Source: Burkholderiaceae bacterium (GTDB lineage Bacteria > Pseudomonadota > Gammaproteobacteria > Burkholderiales > Burkholderiaceae_C). Taken from it: a stretch of DNA of 39,874 nt. A program made the position numbers and the translations under genes. The notes beneath the pieces are model-generated. The model saw only the letters and a program-made list of their open reading frames with translations, searched no databases and was not told the DNA's origin. The stretch is taken from assembly GCA_030653255.1 (NCBI GenBank), contig JAURZS010000182.1, positions 1-39,874 on the forward strand. The letters run 5' to 3'. The stretch's first letter is position 1, and each line of letters opens with the position of its first letter. Of this stretch, positions 28,502 through 39,499 are shown one piece after another.

Positions 28502-31500
28502 TCAGGTCCAGTCGTCCAATGCTTCACGGGTACGCGTCAGCAGCTCACGCAAGCGATCCAGGCGCGCCTGCGCATCCGGCGGCACACCGTGCTGCGCATC
28601 GGCCTCCAGCGCCGTGGCCAGAGCCTGGACCGCTGCGGCACCAATATTGCCCGCCGCCCCCTTGAGCGCATGGGCGGCACGCGACAGCGCCAGCGCATCG
28701 CCCGCAACCACGGCTTCCTCGACCGCCTGAAGCCGGTGCGGCGCGTCCTCGATGAACAATGCCACCACTTCGCGCGTCATGGTCAGCGCCTCGTCGTCAA
28801 ATTCCTTGAACTCATTGAGCCGGCTCATGTCGATGAGAAGCGCCTCCTCGTTGCCTGCCGGGACCGCGGCACCCACGGCAAGGGCGGGCACCTCCGGCAG
28901 CGCCTGGCCGGTTGGCAGCCATTTCTCGAGTGTCACCGCCAAGGCCGCCACATGCAGCGGCTTCGTCAGGTAGTCGTTCATGCCGGCCGCTTCGCAACGC
29001 ACACGATCCTCTGATGAAGCCGCCGCGGTCAGCGCGATGATGGGCGGCGCAGCGCTGCCCCATTCAGCCTGAATCTCGCGCGTGGCCTCCAATCCGTCCA
29101 GGCCCGGCATATTGACGTCCATCAGGATGGCGCCGAAGCGTCGCCCCTGCGCCATCGCCTGCGCCACGGCATCGACGGCCCCGCGTCCGTCGATCGCAGT
29201 TTGAATGTCATAGCCCAACTTGAGCAGCATGGCGCAGGCCACCTTCAGATTGACTGCATTGTCGTCGGCCACCAGAACCGTGATGTGCTTCTTGGCATCG
29301 GTGATCGTGGGCGCCGGCTCGCGCAGCCTGTACTCCGAAGAAATGCAATGCGCGATCGTGTCGAACAGATGGGTCTGGCGCGCCGGCTTGAGGAGACGGG
29401 CGTCGAACAGCTGACCACTGTCGTTGCTGGCGGGCATGAAGCCCGAACTCAGCAACACCAGCGGAATATCGCGCCACCGGGCCTGCGCCTTGATCATGCG
29501 CGCCAGGGTCACGCCGTCCATCTCCGGCATGTGCATGTCGGTGATGATCACATCCGGCATCCAGGCGTCGCCCTTGGGGCCGATTTCCCGCGAGGCCTGC
29601 TCCAGCCAGCGCAACGCCTGTGCACCCGACTCGGCACTGGCCACTTCCATGCCCCAGAGCTGCAGTTGGCGCATGAGAATGCGCACATTGGTTGCATGGT
29701 CGTCCACGATCAGCACGCGATTGCCCTTGAGCACACCCACTTCGGCATGACTGAATGTCGGCGCCATCTCGGTCTCAGGCGCGGCCACTGTGAACCAGAA
29801 TGAAGACCCCTTGCCCAGCTCGCTCTCGACACCGATGTGCCCGCCCATCAGTTCGACCAGCCGTTTGCAGATGGCAAGACCCAAGCCCGTGCCACCGTAC
29901 TTGCGCGTGGTCGAAGCGTCGACCTGGGTAAACGCCTGGAACAGCGAACCGACCCGCTCCGGCGGAATTCCGATTCCGGTGTCTGTCACCCTGAACTCAA
30001 TGACCGCGAGTCCCTGCGCATCGGCCTGGGGCAATCGCCGCGCATGAATCGAGACCTCCCCCTTCTCGGTGAACTTCACTGCGTTATTGATCAGATTGAT
30101 CAACACCTGCTTGAGCCGCGTGGCGTCGCTCCGGACTGCCCCCGGCACGCCGCTGATCCTGGGCTCGGGAATGTCGATGATCAACTCCAGGCCCTTTTCG
30201 CGTGCACGCGGTGCCGCTATATCGCAGGCCTCCTCCACCATGCCCCGTACACTCAGCGGCTCGGCCTCCAGCTCCAGCTTGCCGGACTCGATCTTGGAAA
30301 AATCCAGAATGTCGCTGATGACAGCAAGCAACTGATCGCTGGACAGTCGGATGGTCTGCAGATAATCCCTCTGCTCTGCATCCAGCCGGGTTTCGGCCAG
30401 CAAGGTGCTCATGCCCACCACACCGTTGAGCGGCGTTCGAATCTCGTGGCTCATAGTGGCAAGAAAAGCCGCCTTCGCTCTGACTGCAGCCAGCGCCTCC
30501 TCGCGGGAGGCCTCCAGCTCCGCTGTTCGCAATGCAACACGGGTCTCCAGCGTTTCATTAGCCTGCCGCAGTGCCTGTGCATCAGCGGCCACTTGTTCGC
30601 GATAACCCTTCAATTGTCCGGCGCTGTCGTGCAACACTTGCGACAACTGCCGTACCTCCAACACCCGCGTCGTCTTGTCTATCTCCGGCACCTCGCCGCT
30701 CCCCAGACTCTGTGCCGCCTTGCTCAGTGTCTGTAGACGCCGCCCGAGGGAGCGTGCAATCAGCGTGGCAGTCAATGCAGCCAGCAAGACAAGTGCGGCA
30801 ATCACCCCCAGTGAAACGCGCCAGGCGTTGTTGATCTCACCGGTGAAATCGCTCTCTGGGGCAGCAACGACCAGCGTCCAGCGCAGGCCGAGCGCCTGAC
30901 CGAAAGGACGCTGAACCATCATCAGCGTATCGTTCCCCATTGGCAGGCGTTGCAAGGCGGAACTGACGGCCACGGAATCATCCCTCTTGCGGGCCCGCTC
31001 CGCCTGCAAGGCAACATAACTCTGACGTATCGCTGGATTGGCGCTGTCCTGCGGCCCGCGGCGCTGGACACGATCAGCGACGGCATCCAGAAACAGCGGG
31101 TCACCGGCAGAACTCGCCACGAGCTTGCCAGCTTCGTCCACAATGAAAGCTGCACCGCGCGCGCTGATGCTCTGGGTCCGCAACAGATCGGCCAATTGCT
31201 GCAAATAGATGTCCACGCCGAACACCCCGGCCGCGCCGCCATCGCTCTCATAGACCGGCTGCGACAACGACATGTACAGCTGCGACTTACCAGGGACCTG
31301 CAGAATCGGTGAAAAGCCACGACCCTTGGCCATCATCGCACCCTGGTACCAACTGCGAGTGCGAGGCTCGAAGTTGACAGCCTCCATCGGCAGGGACTGA
31401 CTGCGGTCGCCAGGGCGCTTCGCCAGATAGCTGCGCCGCCCCGCATCGCCCGCGCTGCGCTGACGCACCAGGACCCCGTCTGGCGCCGTCTCCACCGAGA

Positions 31501-31858
31501 AATATTCGCCCCTGCGATTGCCCCAGTAAAGACTGGGTACACCGCTCGACTGTCGCGTGAGCGCAAAGGCCATGGGCTCGAATGCTGCGGAGCCACGCAA
31601 CCAATCCCTCGCCTGATCCTGTTGAGCCGCCGACATGTTCTCAGGGAACAGGGCATTGAGTACGTTCTGCGCCTGCGCCAGATGCGCCTCGGTGCCCGAT
31701 TGCACGCGCGCGGCCACATGGAACAGGATTCCGCCGGCGAGTTCCTGCGCCGCACGGTCGCTGGCGCGGGCCAGTAGCCAGGTGGCCAGCAGAGCGGGTA
31801 CGAGAGCCAACAGCAGCATGCTGACCCCCAGAAGACGACGCAGTGAGAACAGTCGCAT
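28502..31858 (-). CDS. Hybrid sensor histidine kinase with two receiver domains and an HPt domain
   Basis: A 1118-residue inner-membrane sensor kinase. In order: TM1 (about 11-30), a large periplasmic sensor of dCACHE type (about 31-345, with [40 protein letters not shown]), TM2 (about 347-368), HAMP and coiled coil (369-460), HisKA with [10 protein letters not shown] (His471), HATPase_c with N-box and DTGIGIPP plus GGTGLGLAI, a first receiver with Asp774 ([12 protein letters not shown]), a second receiver with Asp914 ([11 protein letters not shown]) and Lys966, and an HPt domain with His1063 ([11 protein letters not shown]). All phospho-acceptor residues are intact. GGAG precedes the ATG, and only 16 bases separate it from the upstream receiver-cyclase gene, its probable partner. 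The ligand is unknown; dCACHE domains often bind amino or organic acids. Confidence 0.95.
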
Positions 31859-31874
31859 GCCCGGCTCCGGCGGC

Positions 31875-32993
31875 CTACAAGGCCAGACTTAACACTTCGG
31901 CCGCATCCATCGGCGCAGAGCGCCCCGGTAGTTCGATCAGGGCCCGCGCGCCCATCTTCACGGCGCCGGTGATCCCACGCAAGGTCGTCACGCTGGCCGT
32001 GATGGCCCAGCCCTGGGAGCGCGCGTGCTTCTGGAGCAGCATGGTCGCACTCACCGCATCGCCCACGGGCAGGGTCTGCACACCAGTCCCGTGCAGGGGA
32101 TCATGCAGTCGGGCCAACGTCACCGGCCCATCGTGCAGAGTCACTGCCACCTCAAAGCGCGGCAGATCGCGGTCGCCGAACTGGACATGCTGATACTGCC
32201 GCATGCGCTGGGCCGAATCGACCAGACCCAGAGCCGCCCGCACAGCACGCAGGCCATGGTTCACCGAGCGGGTGTCGGAGCTGTCCACGAACACCGCCAA
32301 CAGACCCTCGCCAATGAACTGCATATGGCGTGCCCCGAACAAATGCACCGTGTCACCAGCGCTGCCATAAAACTTTTTCACCAGTTCGCCGACCTCGTCG
32401 CTGCTGAGGCGCTCTGCCATCGTCGCGTAATTCAGGATATCGACAAACAGAACGGTCGCATTGACGAACTTCTCATCGTCTGCGCTGTCATCCCCGCTCG
32501 GCCAGCGGTCGCTCAATTCCTTGGCCAGGCGATGCTCATACAGCTTGGCAAGATTGTGTTTCTGCTCCTCCAGCGCCGTCTGCACCGCGGCGTCCACCGC
32601 CATGTTCTGCAAGGCAGCCTGCATCACCCGCTTGTTGAGTTGGGCCGCAGCGGCCTCACGCAACTCTCCTGGACGAAAGGGTTTTGTGATGTAGTCATCC
32701 GCGCCCGTGGTCATGCCGATGCGCATGTGCGCGCGCTCCTGCAGTGATGTCAGCAGAATCACCGGCGTGGCCGCCGTCGCCGGATTCTGTCGCACGGCAG
32801 TCAGCATCTGAAAGCCATTCATTTCGGGCATCTGCACATCGCTGATGATCAGGTCGGGCCTGTGCTTCTCTACCAGCCGCAGTCCCTGCGCGCCGTTGTC
32901 AGCCATCAGGACATCGTACCCATCCTTCTTCAGCACCGACGCAACCAGCATCCGGGTGCCAGCGTCGTCTTCCATCACGACGATCAAGGGCAT
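31875..32993 (-). CDS. Response regulator with a degenerate class III cyclase domain
   Basis: A 372-residue protein: receiver domain (1-120) with acidic D9/D10, phospho-acceptor Asp52 (SDVQMPEMNG), Thr82 and Lys104 (ITKPF), a helical linker (120-165), and a nucleotide-cyclase homology domain (about 175-350). In the cyclase part the first metal-binding aspartate is present (Asp185 in LFVDILNYA), the second is Glu229 (FIGEGLLAVF instead of GDG), and the transition-state segment reads VGDAVSATMLL (312 onward) where active enzymes have VNxAARL, so the catalytic asparagine is Ser315 and the arginine is Leu319. It may bind nucleotide without cyclising it, or act through protein contacts. It overlaps the lipase gene by 10 bases and precedes the hybrid kinase by 16. 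Confidence 0.88.
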   Translation of the reverse strand: MPLIVVMEDDAGTRMLVASVLKKDGYDVLMADNGAQGLRLVEKHRPDLIISDVQMPEMNGFQMLTAVRQNPATAATPVILLTSLQERAHMRIGMTTGADDYITKPFRPGELREAAAAQLNKRVMQAALQNMAVDAAVQTALEEQKHNLAKLYEHRLAKELSDRWPSGDDSADDEKFVNATVLFVDILNYATMAERLSSDEVGELVKKFYGSAGDTVHLFGARHMQFIGEGLLAVFVDSSDTRSVNHGLRAVRAALGLVDSAQRMRQYQHVQFGDRDLPRFEVAVTLHDGPVTLARLHDPLHGTGVQTLPVGDAVSATMLLQKHARSQGWAITASVTTLRGITGAVKMGARALIELPGRSAPMDAAEVLSLAL

Positions 32994-33913
32994 TGTGAGC
33001 TTTCTTTCCTGTCTTGTTGCCCGATTCTAGCCAGACAGTCCCGAACCACCCCCTCGTCGAACGCCATTTGCACATGGGCAAGGCCCGACACCAGGCGATT
33101 CTGCGCCCCCTCGAGCCTGGCATTGGCGGCCGGAAACACAATGTTGTCAAAGTCGGAATACCAGCAACTGAACAACGCCCTGCGGGCCGGAGACTCGGCC
33201 CGCTCCAACAACTGCAGCCACCCGGAATCCGGACGCATCTGCCGAGCGCTTGTCGACTGCCCTAAATGCGCCAGCCAGGTGCCGCGGTGTGGAGTGCCCA
33301 GCGTGAGCACATGATGCACGCGGCTGTCGGCATCGCATGCGCGCAGCCAGGCGCGCGCCACCAGTCCGCCCATGCTATGGCACACCAGCACAGGTGCCAT
33401 CCCGGTACTTTGAGCGAGTCGCCGCACAGCGGCATCAATCTGGGGCGCGTAGCCATCGATCGAGCCAAAAACCGGCTCCAGGGAAACGGCAACGAAGGGG
33501 CGTCCCTGCTCGCGCAGCCGCAGCAGCCAAGGCGTCCAGAAGCCGCGATTGCAGACGATCCCATGAATGAAGACCACTCCGCGAAGACCTTTCACCGCCG
33601 CATTGTCCGGAACGAAGTCAGGAGCCGCGTCCGAAAAAAAAGGCTGCCGCCAAAAAAATACGCGGGGCGCGGCCAAGACTTCGCCCAACCAGGCGCGCGA
33701 CAGGGAACGCCACCCCGCAGCCCCGGCCCCCGCCTGGCGAGAGCCCACGCGCATCAACACAAACTCCATGGCCAGAACCATCGCATAGGAAAAGGCGATT
33801 GCCAGTGCGCCAGCCATCGCCATCGCAGGCGACACCCGCCACCAAGCCCAGGCCCACACGATGGCCCCAAGGCAGAGAAAGGCTATAAGCGCTTGTTGAA
33901 TCCGGGCCAGCAT
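32984..33913 (-). CDS. Membrane-anchored alpha/beta hydrolase (lipase/esterase-like)
   Basis: A protein of about 309 residues. Two hydrophobic segments near the N-terminus (about 8-25 and 30-53) anchor it, followed by an alpha/beta hydrolase domain: VVFIHGIVCNRGFW with the oxyanion HG, nucleophile serine in VLVCHSMGGLVARAWL (a C-H-S-M-G variant of GxSxG), LGTPHRGTW, and a late histidine in SGLAHVQM. An aspartate in WYSDFDNIVFP could complete the triad. This pattern is that of triacylglycerol lipases and PGAP1-like hydrolases; substrate unknown. The ATG at 33911-33913 was taken; a TTG two codons earlier gives MTMLARI. Its end overlaps the response-regulator gene, so the lipase is the first gene of the three-gene signalling unit. 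Confidence 0.88.
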   Translation of the reverse strand: MLARIQQALIAFLCLGAIVWAWAWWRVSPAMAMAGALAIAFSYAMVLAMEFVLMRVGSRQAGAGAAGWRSLSRAWLGEVLAAPRVFFWRQPFFSDAAPDFVPDNAAVKGLRGVVFIHGIVCNRGFWTPWLLRLREQGRPFVAVSLEPVFGSIDGYAPQIDAAVRRLAQSTGMAPVLVCHSMGGLVARAWLRACDADSRVHHVLTLGTPHRGTWLAHLGQSTSARQMRPDSGWLQLLERAESPARRALFSCWYSDFDNIVFPAANARLEGAQNRLVSGLAHVQMAFDEGVVRDCLARIGQQDRKESSQCP

Positions 33914-34065: not shown

Positions 34066-35751
34066 ATGGAAAAATTCTGGTTGAACAGTTATCCCCCGGG
34101 CGTGCCTCACGATGTCGACCCCGAGCAATACCACTCGCTCACCCAGTTGCTGGAAGAATCCTTCAAGAAAAATGCGCAGCGTCCTTTTTCCGTCTGCATG
34201 GATCGCTGGATGTCTTACCACGAACTCGACGATGCATCCGCTGCCTTGGGCGCCTGGCTTCAGGGACTCGGGCTTGCCCCTGGCGAGCGTATCGGGATCA
34301 TGCTGCCCAACGTCCCCCAGTTCGCTGTGACCATGGCCGCCGTCCTGCGCGCTGGCTATACCTGTGTCAACGTCAATCCCCTTTACACGGCACGCGAACT
34401 GGAACATCAGTTGCGCGACTCTGGTGCCACGGTCATCGTCATCCTCGAAAACTTCGCTCACACGCTCGAAGAGGTGATCGAAAAAACGCCCGTCAAGCAC
34501 GTGGTCATCGCCTCGATGGGAGACATGCTCGGCTTTTGGTTCGGCGCCTGGATCACTTTCGCGGTCCGCCATCTGGCCAAGATGGTTCCGGCCTACAAGC
34601 TCCCTCTGGCTGGCGGACGTACAGTGACGTCCTTCAAGCGTGCCCTGGCCAAGGGGGCGTCAAGCTCGCTCAAGTCCAGCCCTCAGTCCCTGGACTCCAT
34701 CGCCTTCCTGCAATACACAGGTGGCACAACGGGTCTGTCCAAGGGCGCCGTGCTGACCCACCGGAACATCGTTGCTGCCATCCTGCAGGCCGAGGCCTGG
34801 TTTACACCGGCACTTTCCCGGGTCGGTGAAGTCCACCGGATCAACAGCATTGCCGCATTGCCGCTGTACCACATCTTTGCGCTGACCCTGTGTCTTCTGG
34901 CGATACGCTGGGGCTCCCACATGACCCTGATACCCAATCCTCGGGACTTCGGGAAATTCATAGAAGTCCTGAAAAAGAGGCCGTTTCACATGCTGCCTGC
35001 GGTGAACACCCTGTTCAATGCGCTGCTGCAGCACCCCCAGTTCCAGAGCGTCGATTTTTCCGCTCTGTGCATTTCCCAGGCTGGTGGCATGGCCGCGTCT
35101 GCCGGTACCGCCAAGCATTGGCTAGAGGTGACAAAAAGCCCCATGATTGAAGGTTGGGGCATGAGCGAAACCTGCGCCATCGGCACCAACAACCCCGTCA
35201 GCAATACCGAGTTCACCGGCACCATCGGTCTGCCCTTGCCCGGAATCTCGATTGCCATCAAGGACGACGACGGCAAGACATTGGCTGTGGGCCAGTCCGG
35301 CGAAATCTGCATCAAGGGCCCCAACGTCATGACCGGTTACTATCAGCAGCCCGAAGAAAACGCCCGGGCCTTCACAAGCGATGGCTATCTGCGTACCGGC
35401 GACATCGGCATCATGGACGAACGCGGATACACACGCATCGTCGACCGCAAAAAGGACATGATTCTGGTCAGCGGCTTCAACGTCTTCCCCAACGAGCTCG
35501 AAAACGTGATCTCCCTGTGCCCTGGCGTTGTCGAATGCGCCGCCATCGGAGTGCCAGACGACAAGCAAGGCGAAGCCATCAAGATATTCATCGTCAAGAA
35601 TGACCCCACACTCAGCGAAGACGATGTGGCGCGTTACTGCCGCGAAAATCTGACAGGCTACAAACACCCCAAATACATTGAATTTCGCGACGAGTTGCCG
35701 AAGACCAATGTCGGAAAGATCCTCCGCAGAGAGCTTCGAACAGGCAAATAG
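34066..35751 (+). CDS. fadD: Long-chain fatty-acid--CoA ligase
   Basis: An AMP-forming acyl-CoA synthetase of 561 residues, normal length. It activates fatty acids with ATP and CoA, at or near the inner membrane. Seen are the P-loop-like A3 motif YTGGTTGLSKGAVLTHRN, the ALPLYHIFALT stretch, GWGMSETCAI (A5), the A7-A8 region LRTGDIGIMDERGYTRIVDRKKDMI followed by SGFNVFPNELE, and the C-terminal lysine in PKTNVGKILRRELR (A10). The ATG at 34066 has AGGAG seven bases upstream. It diverges from the lipase gene across about 150 bases with no recognised regulator site. The substrate chain length is inferred from overall similarity to FadD. Confidence 0.94.
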   Translation: MEKFWLNSYPPGVPHDVDPEQYHSLTQLLEESFKKNAQRPFSVCMDRWMSYHELDDASAALGAWLQGLGLAPGERIGIMLPNVPQFAVTMAAVLRAGYTCVNVNPLYTARELEHQLRDSGATVIVILENFAHTLEEVIEKTPVKHVVIASMGDMLGFWFGAWITFAVRHLAKMVPAYKLPLAGGRTVTSFKRALAKGASSSLKSSPQSLDSIAFLQYTGGTTGLSKGAVLTHRNIVAAILQAEAWFTPALSRVGEVHRINSIAALPLYHIFALTLCLLAIRWGSHMTLIPNPRDFGKFIEVLKKRPFHMLPAVNTLFNALLQHPQFQSVDFSALCISQAGGMAASAGTAKHWLEVTKSPMIEGWGMSETCAIGTNNPVSNTEFTGTIGLPLPGISIAIKDDDGKTLAVGQSGEICIKGPNVMTGYYQQPEENARAFTSDGYLRTGDIGIMDERGYTRIVDRKKDMILVSGFNVFPNELENVISLCPGVVECAAIGVPDDKQGEAIKIFIVKNDPTLSEDDVARYCRENLTGYKHPKYIEFRDELPKTNVGKILRRELRTGK

Positions 35752-35889: not shown

Positions 35890-36021
35890 ATGACAAACCG
35901 ATTTGACAGAAGGCGGCTGCTGACGACCATGCGCGCAGGCAATGCGGCCGCATTGCCTGTCCATGTCTTCGCACAATCTGGCGGAGATCGAGGCTACGGA
36001 TCAATGGATGGAATGATCTGA
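35890..36021 (+). CDS. 43-residue mini-ORF, Bug-like signal peptide remnant coupled to the CoA-transferase
   Basis: A short open frame with a strong ribosome binding site (GGAGG five bases before the ATG) encodes an arginine-rich N-region (FDRRRLLTTM, resembling a twin-arginine leader), a short alanine-rich core and an FAQSGG stretch that resembles the cleavage region of Bug receptors. The last residues, GYGSMDGMI, resemble the usual Bug C-terminus (YGxxIKxAGI). This suggests the head and tail of a Bug protein joined by an in-frame loss of about 280-300 residues. The stop codon overlaps the CoA-transferase ATG (TGATG), so its translation could still drive that of the next gene. It may equally be an unrelated leader peptide; function is unlikely to be solute binding. 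Confidence 0.5.
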   Translation: MTNRFDRRRLLTTMRAGNAAALPVHVFAQSGGDRGYGSMDGMI

Positions 36022-37262
36022 TGTCCCTGAATCCATCTGAGACTGCCCCGCTTGCAGGACTTCGCGTCATTGAAGTTGCGAGCTATATCGCAGCGCCGGT
36101 CGCGTCGACCTTGTTGGGCGATTTGGGCGCTGAGATCGTCAAAGTGGAAGCGCCAGGTTCTGGTGATGCATGGCGTCATGCCTTTCGTCGCCCAGGCCTT
36201 CCCGAATGCGAGAGCAACTATCTCTGGCAACTCGCGGCGCGCAACAAGCAAAGCATTGCCCTTGATCTGAAGCAGCTACAAGGGCAGAAGGTACTTCACC
36301 GCCTGGTGGAGACTGCCGACGTTTTCATCACGAATTTACCCTTGCATGCCAGAGCCAAACTAGGTTTGGCCTATGAGACGCTCGTCCAGCCGAATTCACG
36401 CCTTATCTATGCCTCCCTGACAGGCTATGGCGAGGTGGGACCGGAAATTCACCAAAAGTCATACGACCATACGGCGTGGTGGGGGCGCTCCGGACTGATG
36501 GAGCAGCTGCGTTCCGAGCCGGATTCCGACCCCGTCCGCCCACCGGTCGCCATGGGGGATCACACGACAGCGTTGGCTCTCTACGGCACGATTCTGAGCG
36601 CGCTGTTCCGGCGTGAGCGAACCGGCAAAGGTGCGTATGTCGGGACTTCCCTTCTCTCTACGGGTGCCTGGATCAACAGCTGTGCCATTCAGGCTGCACT
36701 GGGAGGGGCCACATTTCCCCCGCCAACACCCCGGACCGAGACCCACAATGCCATGCAGTGTTATTACCTTTGCGCCGATGACCGTTGGATCATCCTCTAC
36801 GTGCCCTTCGGCGAAGGCGACAGGGGATTTTCCGAGCTCATGCAGGCGTTGGACATGCCTCAACTCGCGAGTGACCCCAAGTTCAATACCTTCTCCAGCC
36901 GCAAGGAAAACCGGAAAACACTGATCTCCGCATTCGATGCGAAATTCAGAGAGAAGGGCTCGCATGACTGGGTCCAGCAACTCCGTCATCTCGGATTCAC
37001 CATCGAGGTGATGAACCGTTCGCAAGACGCCTCCACCGACTCTCAGATGCTGGCAGCTTCGGTCATAGCACCGATCTTCGATGCACCGGGGTTTGACCAA
37101 ACCGTGAGCAGTCCGATGTGGTTTCGGGATGTGCCGGCCAGGGCGGCAAGGGGCGCTCCAGAGTTGGGAGGAGACACGACCCGGATCCTCGCGCAGAACG
37201 GCCTCTCGGCCGATGAGATCGCTGCGCTGAAGCGCGAAGGTGTCGTTTTTCAAGCCCCTTGA
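36021..37262 (+). CDS. CaiB/BaiF family III CoA-transferase (second copy)
   Basis: This 413-residue CoA-transferase has PLAGLRVIEVASYIAAPVAS, DLGAEIVKVEAP, NKQSIALDLK, SLTGYGEVGP and Asp180 in VAMGDHTTALAL at the catalytic position. It is only distantly like the other CoA-transferase at 6456. The C-terminal domain (WIILYVPFGEGDRGFSELMQ) is complete and length is normal. It is translationally coupled to the mini-ORF and followed after 39 bases by an amidohydrolase gene, so the two enzymes probably act on the same compound: activation of a carboxylate as a CoA ester and a hydrolytic or decarboxylating step. Substrate unknown. GC looks lower and codon choice less biased than in the core genes to the left, which suggests later acquisition. 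Confidence 0.92.
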   Translation: MSLNPSETAPLAGLRVIEVASYIAAPVASTLLGDLGAEIVKVEAPGSGDAWRHAFRRPGLPECESNYLWQLAARNKQSIALDLKQLQGQKVLHRLVETADVFITNLPLHARAKLGLAYETLVQPNSRLIYASLTGYGEVGPEIHQKSYDHTAWWGRSGLMEQLRSEPDSDPVRPPVAMGDHTTALALYGTILSALFRRERTGKGAYVGTSLLSTGAWINSCAIQAALGGATFPPPTPRTETHNAMQCYYLCADDRWIILYVPFGEGDRGFSELMQALDMPQLASDPKFNTFSSRKENRKTLISAFDAKFREKGSHDWVQQLRHLGFTIEVMNRSQDASTDSQMLAASVIAPIFDAPGFDQTVSSPMWFRDVPARAARGAPELGGDTTRILAQNGLSADEIAALKREGVVFQAP

Positions 37263-37301
37263 TCCATATGCAGCTCCGCTATAACCAAAGGAAATTTCTA
37301 C

Positions 37302-38519
37302 ATGAAAGTTGAAGAGCAAATTTCTGAAGAGCCCAATCCTGAAAACCTCTGGCGCCTTGAGACTCCAGGCCATGCCGGCTGGAAACGCACAGCGCGTGCT
37401 GGCGATCCGAACAAGTATTTCATCCTCTCTGCGGACTGCCATGCCAATGAACCTTTCGACCTATGGGAGAAGCGCATTGACGCCAAGTACCGCGATCGTC
37501 TTCCGCGCGTGGTCGTTGACGAGGCGGGTCAGCAATGGCGCAAGGTCGAAGGCTACCGCCCCGATAAGTTAAGAGTCACCACATTCACCGGGGAGGACAA
37601 GTTACGTTCCAAGGCTGGGGCAGACCCGGAGCAGCGCCTGCGCGATCACCAGCGCGACGGCATCGACGTCGAGCTTATCTTCCCAAACAAGGGGCTGGCC
37701 ATGTGGGCAACTCCCGACCCTGTGTTTTCCAACGCTATGTGCCGCATCTGGAATGACTGGGCCTGGGAAACTTTCGCGCCATACAAGGACACGATGATCA
37801 CAGTCGCATCCTTGGCGCCCGGTGATCTCGAAGGGACCTTGGCGGAAGTCCGGCGAGTGGCCAAGATGGGATTCAAGGCGCTGACACTCCCGACCAAGCC
37901 GATTTGGGGCCCTGCGAACATTGACGAACTGAACTACAACCTGCCGGAATTCGATCCCCTTTGGGCCGAAATCCAGGAAGCCGGCCTGCCGATCACCTTT
38001 CATATTGGCACTGGTCGGGATCCCCGCTCGGCACGTGGCCACGGTGGCGCCGTAATCAACATGACGGCGCACACGCTCGTTCAATGTCTCGAGCCGGTAT
38101 CCACATTGTGCAGTTCCGGCGTGCTTGAGCGTTTTCCAGGATTGAAGTTCGCGACTGTCGAGGCCGGGATTGGCTGGATACCGTGGATGATCGAGGCCAT
38201 GGACGAGGCCTATTTGAAGCACCACATGTGGACCCGCCCCAAGTTGAAGAACTTGCCAAGTGAGTTGTTCCGGCGGCAGGGCTTTGCGACCTTTCAGGAA
38301 GACAGCTCTGGACTCGACCTGGCGGAGTCCCACAATCTCGTCGATAACTTCATGTGGGCCAACGACTATCCCCATCACGAGGGAACTTGGCCTCACTCGG
38401 CGCAAGCCATCGAGCGAACAATGGGTGGATTGAAAGAGGAATCGAGAGCAAAGATTCTTGGCTTGAATGCAGCCCGTTTTCTGAACATCGACGTGCCAAG
38501 CCTGCAAACGGTGTACTGA
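37302..38519 (+). CDS. Amidohydrolase-superfamily protein (amidohydro-rel type)
   Basis: A 405-residue TIM-barrel protein. The first metal motif reads SADCHANEP (Asp45, His47, Glu50), then HIGTGRD with His234, a conserved His near position 248 in ARGHGGAVINM, and the final aspartate in FMWANDYPHHEGTWP (Asp355). This set is that of the ACMSD/gamma-resorcylate decarboxylase branch, whose members are metal-dependent decarboxylases or hydrolases; which reaction applies cannot be read here. GGAAA precedes the ATG at 37302 by about nine bases. It is the second enzyme of the CoA-transferase operon, and the LysR gene converges on it with 44 bases between the stops. Confidence 0.9.
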   Translation: MKVEEQISEEPNPENLWRLETPGHAGWKRTARAGDPNKYFILSADCHANEPFDLWEKRIDAKYRDRLPRVVVDEAGQQWRKVEGYRPDKLRVTTFTGEDKLRSKAGADPEQRLRDHQRDGIDVELIFPNKGLAMWATPDPVFSNAMCRIWNDWAWETFAPYKDTMITVASLAPGDLEGTLAEVRRVAKMGFKALTLPTKPIWGPANIDELNYNLPEFDPLWAEIQEAGLPITFHIGTGRDPRSARGHGGAVINMTAHTLVQCLEPVSTLCSSGVLERFPGLKFATVEAGIGWIPWMIEAMDEAYLKHHMWTRPKLKNLPSELFRRQGFATFQEDSSGLDLAESHNLVDNFMWANDYPHHEGTWPHSAQAIERTMGGLKEESRAKILGLNAARFLNIDVPSLQTVY

Positions 38520-38563
38520 ACCCAGTTCCGCCAGCGGTTTGTGCGGAATTTCCTGAGCAGGCC

Positions 38564-39499
38564 TCACTCGCTCTGGAGCGCAGCGCCCACCTGAAGAAGG
38601 CATTTCAGGAAGTATTGCGCCTGCTCGGTCAAAGGAGAGGCCGAAAGATGGTATGCAGCGGTCTTGATATTGATGCGCGGTGAAAATGGGCGCACTCTGA
38701 TGTCGGTAAACGTGCCCGCTGCGAGCTGCATCGGATTCAGCAGTCCCACGCCCAGCCCAGCCCGCACCATGTTCGCGACTGCGAATGAGCTGCCCACCTC
38801 GGCTACGAGCATCAAGGAAGCCTTCGCCCGTCGAAATGCTGCATCGACAAAGCTCTGGGTACTAAGTTCGGACCGAATTCTGATGATCGGAATGTCGCGC
38901 AAGTCCGCTGGCCGAATCACCTTGGATCGCTCCAGCGAGTGTCCTGCCGGAAATGCTACGGCCATGGCGTGACTGCAGAGCTCAGTGCATTCACACAAGT
39001 GGACACTCTGGGGATCAACCTCTTTGGAGGTGCGGTGACAGATGCCAATATCAACTCTTCGGCTGACAACCTGCTCAAGCACATCGTGCATGATCAGTTC
39101 CGGAACGATATCGAAAGTGGTCTGAGGCCATTTTTCCCTGACAAGACGAGCAGCATCCGGAACGAGGGTGGCGAGCGATGTGCTGGTCGTTGCAATTGTG
39201 ATGTGCCCGGACATTCGATCGGCGATATTGCGAAACATCCGCTGGGCTGTTCGAAGCTGATCGACTGCAGCTTGCGCATGTGGCAACAGCCGCATGGCAA
39301 AAGGCGTCGGGACGAGGCGCCCATGAATCCGCTCAAAAAGAGGAAGGGCGATCTCGTTCTCCATCTGGCGGATTGCTTTCGATACCGCTGGCTGGGAAAT
39401 CATGAGTTTTTCGGCTGTCTCGACCAGGGTGCTACTGGTCATGACTGTCATGAAAATTTCAAGATGCCGCCCACTGATTCGGCTTGTATCCATTTTCAT
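38564..39499 (-). CDS. LysR-family transcriptional regulator
   Basis: A 311-residue LysR protein with an N-terminal winged helix (ISGRHLEIFMTVMTSSTLVETAEKL, then SQPAVSKAIRQMENEIALPLFER) and a periplasmic-binding-protein-like effector domain with HITIATTSTSLATLVPDAARL, GICHRTSKE and GLGVGLLNP. It is oriented toward the amidohydrolase gene, not divergent from the operon, so its target promoter is more likely the one before the mini-ORF around 35850-35885 than an adjacent one; that is inference. The start at 39499 (MKMDTSR) or 39493 (MDTSR) is open. Composition is close to the CoA-transferase and amidohydrolase genes and unlike the core genes. Confidence 0.92.
   Translation of the reverse strand: MKMDTSRISGRHLEIFMTVMTSSTLVETAEKLMISQPAVSKAIRQMENEIALPLFERIHGRLVPTPFAMRLLPHAQAAVDQLRTAQRMFRNIADRMSGHITIATTSTSLATLVPDAARLVREKWPQTTFDIVPELIMHDVLEQVVSRRVDIGICHRTSKEVDPQSVHLCECTELCSHAMAVAFPAGHSLERSKVIRPADLRDIPIIRIRSELSTQSFVDAAFRRAKASLMLVAEVGSSFAVANMVRAGLGVGLLNPMQLAAGTFTDIRVRPFSPRINIKTAAYHLSASPLTEQAQYFLKCLLQVGAALQSE

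Follow-up and report, generated by a model that had tools for sequence, protein, structure and literature searches.

To what does a hybrid histidine kinase signal when the response regulator encoded beside it ends in a cyclase-like domain that appears to have lost its catalytic residues? The question is raised by three genes on the minus strand of a 39,874-nucleotide stretch of Burkholderiaceae DNA (contig JAURZS010000182.1 of assembly GCA_030653255.1; this whole stretch is called the window below). In order, they encode a lipase or esterase of the alpha/beta hydrolase type (32984..33913), a response regulator (RR) composed of a receiver, a long helix and a degenerate class III cyclase domain (31875..32993), and a hybrid histidine kinase (HHK) with a dCache sensor (28502..31858). 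The lipase and RR genes overlap by 10 bases, 16 bases separate RR from HHK, and a gene for a FadD-type long-chain acyl-CoA ligase diverges from the lipase gene on the plus strand (34066..35751). The coordinates of this layout in the initial annotation were confirmed. We assign a probability of about 55% to the reading that RR and HHK form a two-gene, four-step phosphorelay (His-Asp-His-Asp) that leads to a non-catalytic, RssB-like effector, and that the lipase and FadD genes belong to an older neighbourhood.

In such a relay, the periplasmic dCache domain of HHK would sense a ligand, and phosphate would pass from His471 to an aspartate of an HHK receiver, from there to His1063 of the HPt domain, and finally to Asp52 of the separate RR. 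Gene order, domain content, residue losses, predicted fold, tree position and upkeep by selection are computational results. Phosphotransfer from HHK to RR, dimerization of RR (suggested by its long helix) and a non-catalytic output are what we infer; phosphorylation would change the binding of RR to a partner, either protein or nucleotide, much as in the pseudo-phosphatase RssB. If correct, this adds a conserved clade of catalytically dead response regulators with a class III cyclase fold, together with the kinase that is their probable partner, encoded in the same operon, and with an apparent descent from a receiver-cyclase-kinase ancestor. Loss of catalysis with retained signalling would be directly testable in this clade.

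Relatives were collected with a profile of the cyclase-like half of RR (A2), searched against 399 genomes of this family, an even sample of a larger group. A separate contig scan with receiver peptides gave 80 loci, with best segments 30-43% identical and most matches as long as a receiver; none of these was used. The genome searches score 5-7 candidates per genome; absences reported here are upper bounds, and counts are among the matches listed. The profile matches at E ≤ 1e-3 in 238 of the 399 genomes, mostly weakly and within longer open reading frames (ORFs). Stand-alone RR of ~370 amino acids occur at 33 loci at E ≤ 1e-44 and at three with weaker scores (second copies in genomes G230 and G302, and G120), making 36 loci in 31 genomes, window included. 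The residue table covers 34 of these and leaves out a split RR (locus L165) and the second copy in G230 (L217), which by eye also lacks the substrate Lys and the transition-state Asn and has no kinase or lipase seen within 9 kb. In the receiver (residues 1-122, 32628..32993), Asp9, the phospho-acceptor Asp52 (codon 32838-32840), Thr82 and Lys104 are present in 34 of 34 rows, and Asp10 in 32, with Glu in the other two.

According to structure prediction, the C-terminal half of RR (residues 172-372, 31878..32480) has retained the class III cyclase fold. Pfam finds Response_reg and a weak Guanylate_cyc match in RR of the window (25.0 bits, cut-off 21.9), and Guanylate_cyc at E ≤ 0.01 in 21 of 25 RR. 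An AlphaFold2 model built from 25 rows, with a mean predicted local distance difference test score of 83.7, comprises the receiver, a helix from 108 to 162 and the cyclase-like domain; its predicted template modelling score of 0.54 leaves the relative placement of the domains uncertain. The modelled cyclase-like half aligns with CyaB, Cya2 and CyaC at Z values of 22-24 over ~190 residues (realigned Foldseek matches), the best match being CyaB (3r5g; Z 23.7, 190 aligned residues, 1.9 Å).

The roles of the catalytic columns follow the class III cyclase literature and were read against an alignment with CyaC. On this basis, RR of the window has Gln225 for the substrate Lys, Glu229 for the second metal Asp, Ser315 for the transition-state Asn and Leu319 for Arg, and it keeps the first metal residue, Asp185. 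The substrate Lys occurs in none of the 34 RR (Gln takes its place in 26); the transition-state Asn occurs in two and Arg in three, both together in none and neither in 29. With residues needed for cyclic nucleotide synthesis lost, RR would be catalytically dead and probably signals by binding, not catalysis, and the description of RR as a pseudo-cyclase in the initial annotation is supported. Simple counting over seven close pairs gives dN/dS values of 0.05-0.21 for the cyclase-like half and 0.03-0.14 for the receiver (computable in six), with the domain ranges of one pair (G303/G364) shifted by N-terminal extensions. These low values indicate that both halves are maintained.

A related hybrid kinase lies directly downstream of RR, on the same strand, at 29 of the 36 RR loci, and the pair is also kept away from the lipase (for example, in G008, G025, G175, G416, G221, G303 and G364). 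The arrangement is not due to chance: the two genes are neighbours in many genera, and all seven pairs tested show purifying selection on RR. The RR-HHK pair is the stable unit, and the lipase is not a constant part of it. Spacing agrees with a tighter bond between RR and HHK. Gaps were measured in 14 relatives, out of 16 that are lipase-linked. There, RR-HHK distances range from -136 to +48 bases (the -136 comes from a first-start ORF and is probably overstated) and fall between -4 and +21 in 11, whereas lipase-RR distances range from +2 to +328. The overlap of -10 between lipase and RR is thus peculiar to the window. The window lipase extends ~9 residues beyond most relatives (alignment A3; 32984-33013), with the lipase of G223 reaching almost as far, and this run-on accounts for the overlap.

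HHK is organized as a transmembrane segment, dCache, a second transmembrane segment, a HAMP-like region, HisKA (His471), HATPase, receiver 1 (Asp774), receiver 2 (Asp914) and HPt (His1063). Pfam identifies dCache_1 (residues 101-309, 30932..31558; 48.2 bits, cut-off 45), HisKA, HATPase_c, two Response_reg stretches and Hpt (residues 1030-1112, 28523..28771; His1063 codon 28670-28672), so the two receivers and HPt, like the receiver-cyclase make-up of RR, are as first described, and the residue numbers given then for Asp52 and His1063 were correct. The HAMP match, at 19 bits, is under its cut-off of 25, and the hydrophobic segments that bracket dCache are predicted by hydropathy only. We aligned 26 of 30 neighbouring kinases, leaving out those of G074 (truncated), G146 (cut by a contig end), G364 and G154. 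HisKA, HATPase_c, Response_reg and Hpt match in all 26 and dCache_1 in 24; His471 and His1063 are invariant, receiver 1 is missing in four, and the receiver 2 phospho-Asp is present in every row. The conserved adjacency and the invariant Asp52 and HPt His support the proposal in the initial annotation that RR is the probable end point of the relay.

The dCache domain was compared with sensor motifs from the literature. One preprint defines the amino-acid sensor motif of dCache_1AA by PctA Y121, R126, Y129 and D173, and gives the WY-pair and final-Asp positions as common to amino-acid and amine sensors (PMC10104139); purine sensors have another motif, according to a further study (PMC11245519). 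By eye, with no structural alignment, most HHK rows keep the central WY pair and the final Asp, and the aromatic and Arg positions of the amino-acid motif vary between rows. The sensor can also be exchanged: the G035 kinase (L036 4190-7543) has a different N-terminal sensor, with the rest kept, beside the same RR and lipase.

How does this pair compare with known systems? To our knowledge, response regulators with an enzyme fold and a catalytically dead output are few, RssB being the best known. Kinases with the order HisKA-HATPase-receiver-HPt include BarA/GacS, TorS and ArcB. HHK shares that order and has its best NCBIfam matches to TorS and BarA, far under their cut-offs (463 of 676 bits and 461 of 890, respectively); unlike these kinases, it has a dCache sensor, two receivers and an adjacent pseudo-cyclase regulator. 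RR has the receiver-helix-cyclase layout of the PleD and WspR receiver-GGDEF regulators, and 3bre and PleD are among its fold matches, but its output is class III cyclase-like rather than GGDEF. CyaC, CyaB and Cya2 have the predicted fold in common with RR, which has lost the substrate and transition-state residues. RssB of E. coli and P. aeruginosa, as portrayed in PMC7226468, has a PP2C-fold effector that lacks active-site residues and binds proteins. RR likewise joins a receiver to an enzyme-fold effector without catalytic residues, judged by its residues and predicted fold only; unlike RssB, it has a class III cyclase fold and an adjacent hybrid kinase. No description of a receiver plus pseudo-cyclase regulator was recognised in titles and abstract openings of the open-licence PMC articles listed, a scope outside which most subscription journals fall.

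The nearest relatives of RR are receiver-cyclase-serine/threonine kinase (STK) proteins of the same order (for example, L039 8003-10078 in G035), whose C-terminal protein kinase domain is absent from RR. They are 27-38% identical to RR over nearly its whole length, most of them 34-38%, and among eight scanned, Pkinase and the receiver are found in eight and a cyclase match in seven. These fusions are ~690-750 amino acids long in the family and also occur in other families of the order (L039 8003-10078, L202-L214, L218-L224). Many keep the full catalytic set in the cyclase part; in G122, G418 and G223 this part keeps Lys, the second metal Asp and Arg and has lost Asn and the first metal Asp (row S_G221 was not used in the residue table). 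A tree of 31 RR, 12 STK-type proteins of the family and eight from other families, made without three long-branch rows (G302b, G087b, G120) and with the long branch G106 remaining, places RR in one clade (100/100) grouped with three STK proteins of the family (96/84), with the other-family proteins outside. An order-wide search (399 genomes, E ≤ 1e-25) found no stand-alone RR outside the family among the matches listed; the ~25 listed there lie in ORFs of 617-985 amino acids, and the four scanned of the eight other-family loci in the tree all have a protein kinase domain. RR apparently derived within the family from receiver-cyclase-STK proteins that lost their kinase domain and catalytic residues.

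Several points weigh against a relay to a non-catalytic RR. Of the 34 RR, 30 keep the first metal Asp and 30 have an acidic residue at the second metal position (19 Glu, 11 Asp); such retention seems more than a purely structural role needs, and odd residues are tolerated by some class III cyclases. The dN/dS values come from pairs that have diverged strongly at synonymous sites (pS up to 0.68). At seven of the 36 RR loci no kinase follows RR directly with the same orientation, and among the 29 partner kinases those of G006 and G154 have other sensor parts (of GAF/PAS type, judged for G154 by its start). Finally, the relay could end on the two receivers that HHK itself carries, and RR might serve as a phosphate sink. 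At one of the seven loci, the first copy in G086, the kinase adjoins RR but is divergent; no kinase was seen at the other six (the second copies in G223, G087, G230 and G302, plus G120 and G106), among which G106 and G302 are on short contigs.

Could the lipase be part of the system, as the initial annotation proposed when it took the three genes as one functional unit and the lipase as a clue to the signal? A lipase product or substrate would then be the ligand, and the relay would control lipid use. We regard this as unlikely. At 17 of the 36 loci RR is immediately preceded by the lipase, whose copy in G074 is broken; in G122 and G418 the lipase lies ~7 and 13 kb upstream, and at the other 17 loci it is not adjacent. 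Joint retention of the three genes in relatives, on which the initial annotation let its reading depend, is thus supported in part. Eight changes of linkage are needed within the RR clade, and linked members in both large subclades (8 and 19 rows) favour an old linkage. The adjoining genes in relatives, for FadD, an FFLEELY protein, a GMC oxidoreductase and a Tat-signal-like protein, also count in favour of this reading. But the lipase occurs in 271 of the 399 genomes (E ≤ 1e-30, nearly always as a single match), against ~30 with RR, lipase-RR gaps in relatives reach 328 bases, and the lipase-linked kinase of G035 has another sensor domain. The lipase was therefore rejected as a clue to the HHK ligand: it occurs mostly without RR, and the pair holds together at most loci away from it.

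The lipase gene order also exists without the pair, so that RR and HHK sit like an insert. We fetched 20 lipase loci without an adjacent pair, mostly from the top of the lipase match list. At 15 of them FadD occupies the divergent side, as it does in the window, where it neighbours the lipase with the pair. The next gene after the lipase encodes a PAS-LuxR or CRP regulator in five (G066, G416, G221, G277, G093), begins a GNAT-CorC-Lnt set in three (G002, G006, G078) and is something else in twelve. In the window, GNAT-CorC-Lnt genes come after HHK. Under the relay reading proposed here, the lipase and FadD would form a neighbourhood older than the pair, which lies next to them in part of the family; the lipase is probably a backbone neighbour and not part of the relay, and it may be co-regulated with the pair where adjacent.

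A quite different possibility is that RR is half of an active enzyme. Mammalian adenylyl cyclases have an active site split between C1 and C2, with the C1 half giving the metal ligands. RR could be a C1-like half, with Lys, Asn and Arg supplied by an STK paralogue. Phosphorylation of RR would then gate cyclic AMP synthesis, and the hybrid kinase would control both this synthesis and a serine/threonine kinase through a split active site. The losses in RR have a C1-like pattern (first metal Asp in 30 of 34, Asp or Glu at the second position in 30, Lys in none, Asn in two, Arg in three). The paralogue of G122 and G418 has Lys, the second metal Asp and Arg but neither Asn nor the first metal Asp, and RR there keeps both metal Asp; genes for CRP and a zinc-ribbon cyclase adjoin the locus in G187, G071, G155 and G223. 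An STK-length match (E ≤ 1e-70) occurs in 16 genomes of the family and 15 of these also have RR, as against 30 of 399 overall (G120 not counted; Fisher 4e-18 by genome, 1.5e-9 by genus), but this co-occurrence is confounded by descent because RR and STK proteins are sisters on the tree. No paralogue was found at E ≤ 1e-70 in 15 of the 30 RR genomes, among them that of the window (90.55% complete). Moreover, 19 of 34 RR have Glu in place of Asp at the second metal position, both partners of G122 and G418 are without Asn, and other families have STK proteins with no stand-alone RR there among the matches listed. A split enzyme is accordingly unlikely.

It is also improbable that RR serves only as a phosphate sink, or negative regulator of HHK, with the receivers of HHK as the real outputs. 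The Response_reg match in 26 of 26 kinases scanned, the receiver 2 phospho-Asp in all 26 rows and an RR output domain without the full catalytic set would suit this role; selection on the cyclase-like half (dN/dS 0.05-0.21) would be needless for a bare sink. That RR is an active enzyme with a non-canonical catalytic set, with residual nucleotidyl cyclase activity or another nucleotide reaction, is very unlikely given that the substrate Lys is absent from all 34 RR and both Asn and Arg from 29, despite the intact predicted fold, the first metal Asp kept in 30 and purifying selection.

Some further observations concern the copies and their surroundings. Second RR copies with no kinase seen beside them are found at L162 (9063-10277), L177 (8643-9761), L179 (2167-3267) and L217 (4755-5942). 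RR is split over two ORFs in G302 (L165 8540-9732), and the G074 kinase, truncated, is reduced to its receiver-HPt end (L156 5731-6564), both possibly through assembly error; another of the 29 partner kinases, in G146, is cut by a contig end. In many relatives, the FadD-lipase interval holds genes for an FFLEELY-motif protein, a Tat-signal-like protein (~168 amino acids) and a GMC oxidoreductase (L151 4416-7374, L160 5483-7628), none of which is in this interval of the window. In several relatives, genes for a PAS-LuxR regulator, a CRP-like regulator, an M4 metallopeptidase and a zinc-ribbon/cyclase/AAA protein lie 3′ of the kinase (L151 12870-18738, L160 13398-19212), and this set directly follows the lipase in some genomes without the pair.

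A plasmid location was considered and rejected: five PLSDB records match RR (E ≤ 1e-20), each over less than 80% of it, and the lipase has no match there. A promoter and terminator scan gave no promoter-like and two terminator-like sites, fewer than in shuffled sequences, which is evidence for neither side. The window lipase is matched by Pfam as an alpha/beta hydrolase, with two N-terminal hydrophobic segments predicted by hydropathy only and an intact triad (Ser180-Asp256-His280) that is invariant in 15 of 15 aligned lipases, all of which match Abhydrolase_6 at E ≤ 0.001. The solved sequences closest to it are lipases, for example B. subtilis lipase A. Its gene starts with ATG at 33913, and a TTG 6 bases upstream is a possible alternative. 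Beyond fadD, the window encodes a CoA-transferase of family III, an amidohydrolase and a LysR regulator (36021-39499).

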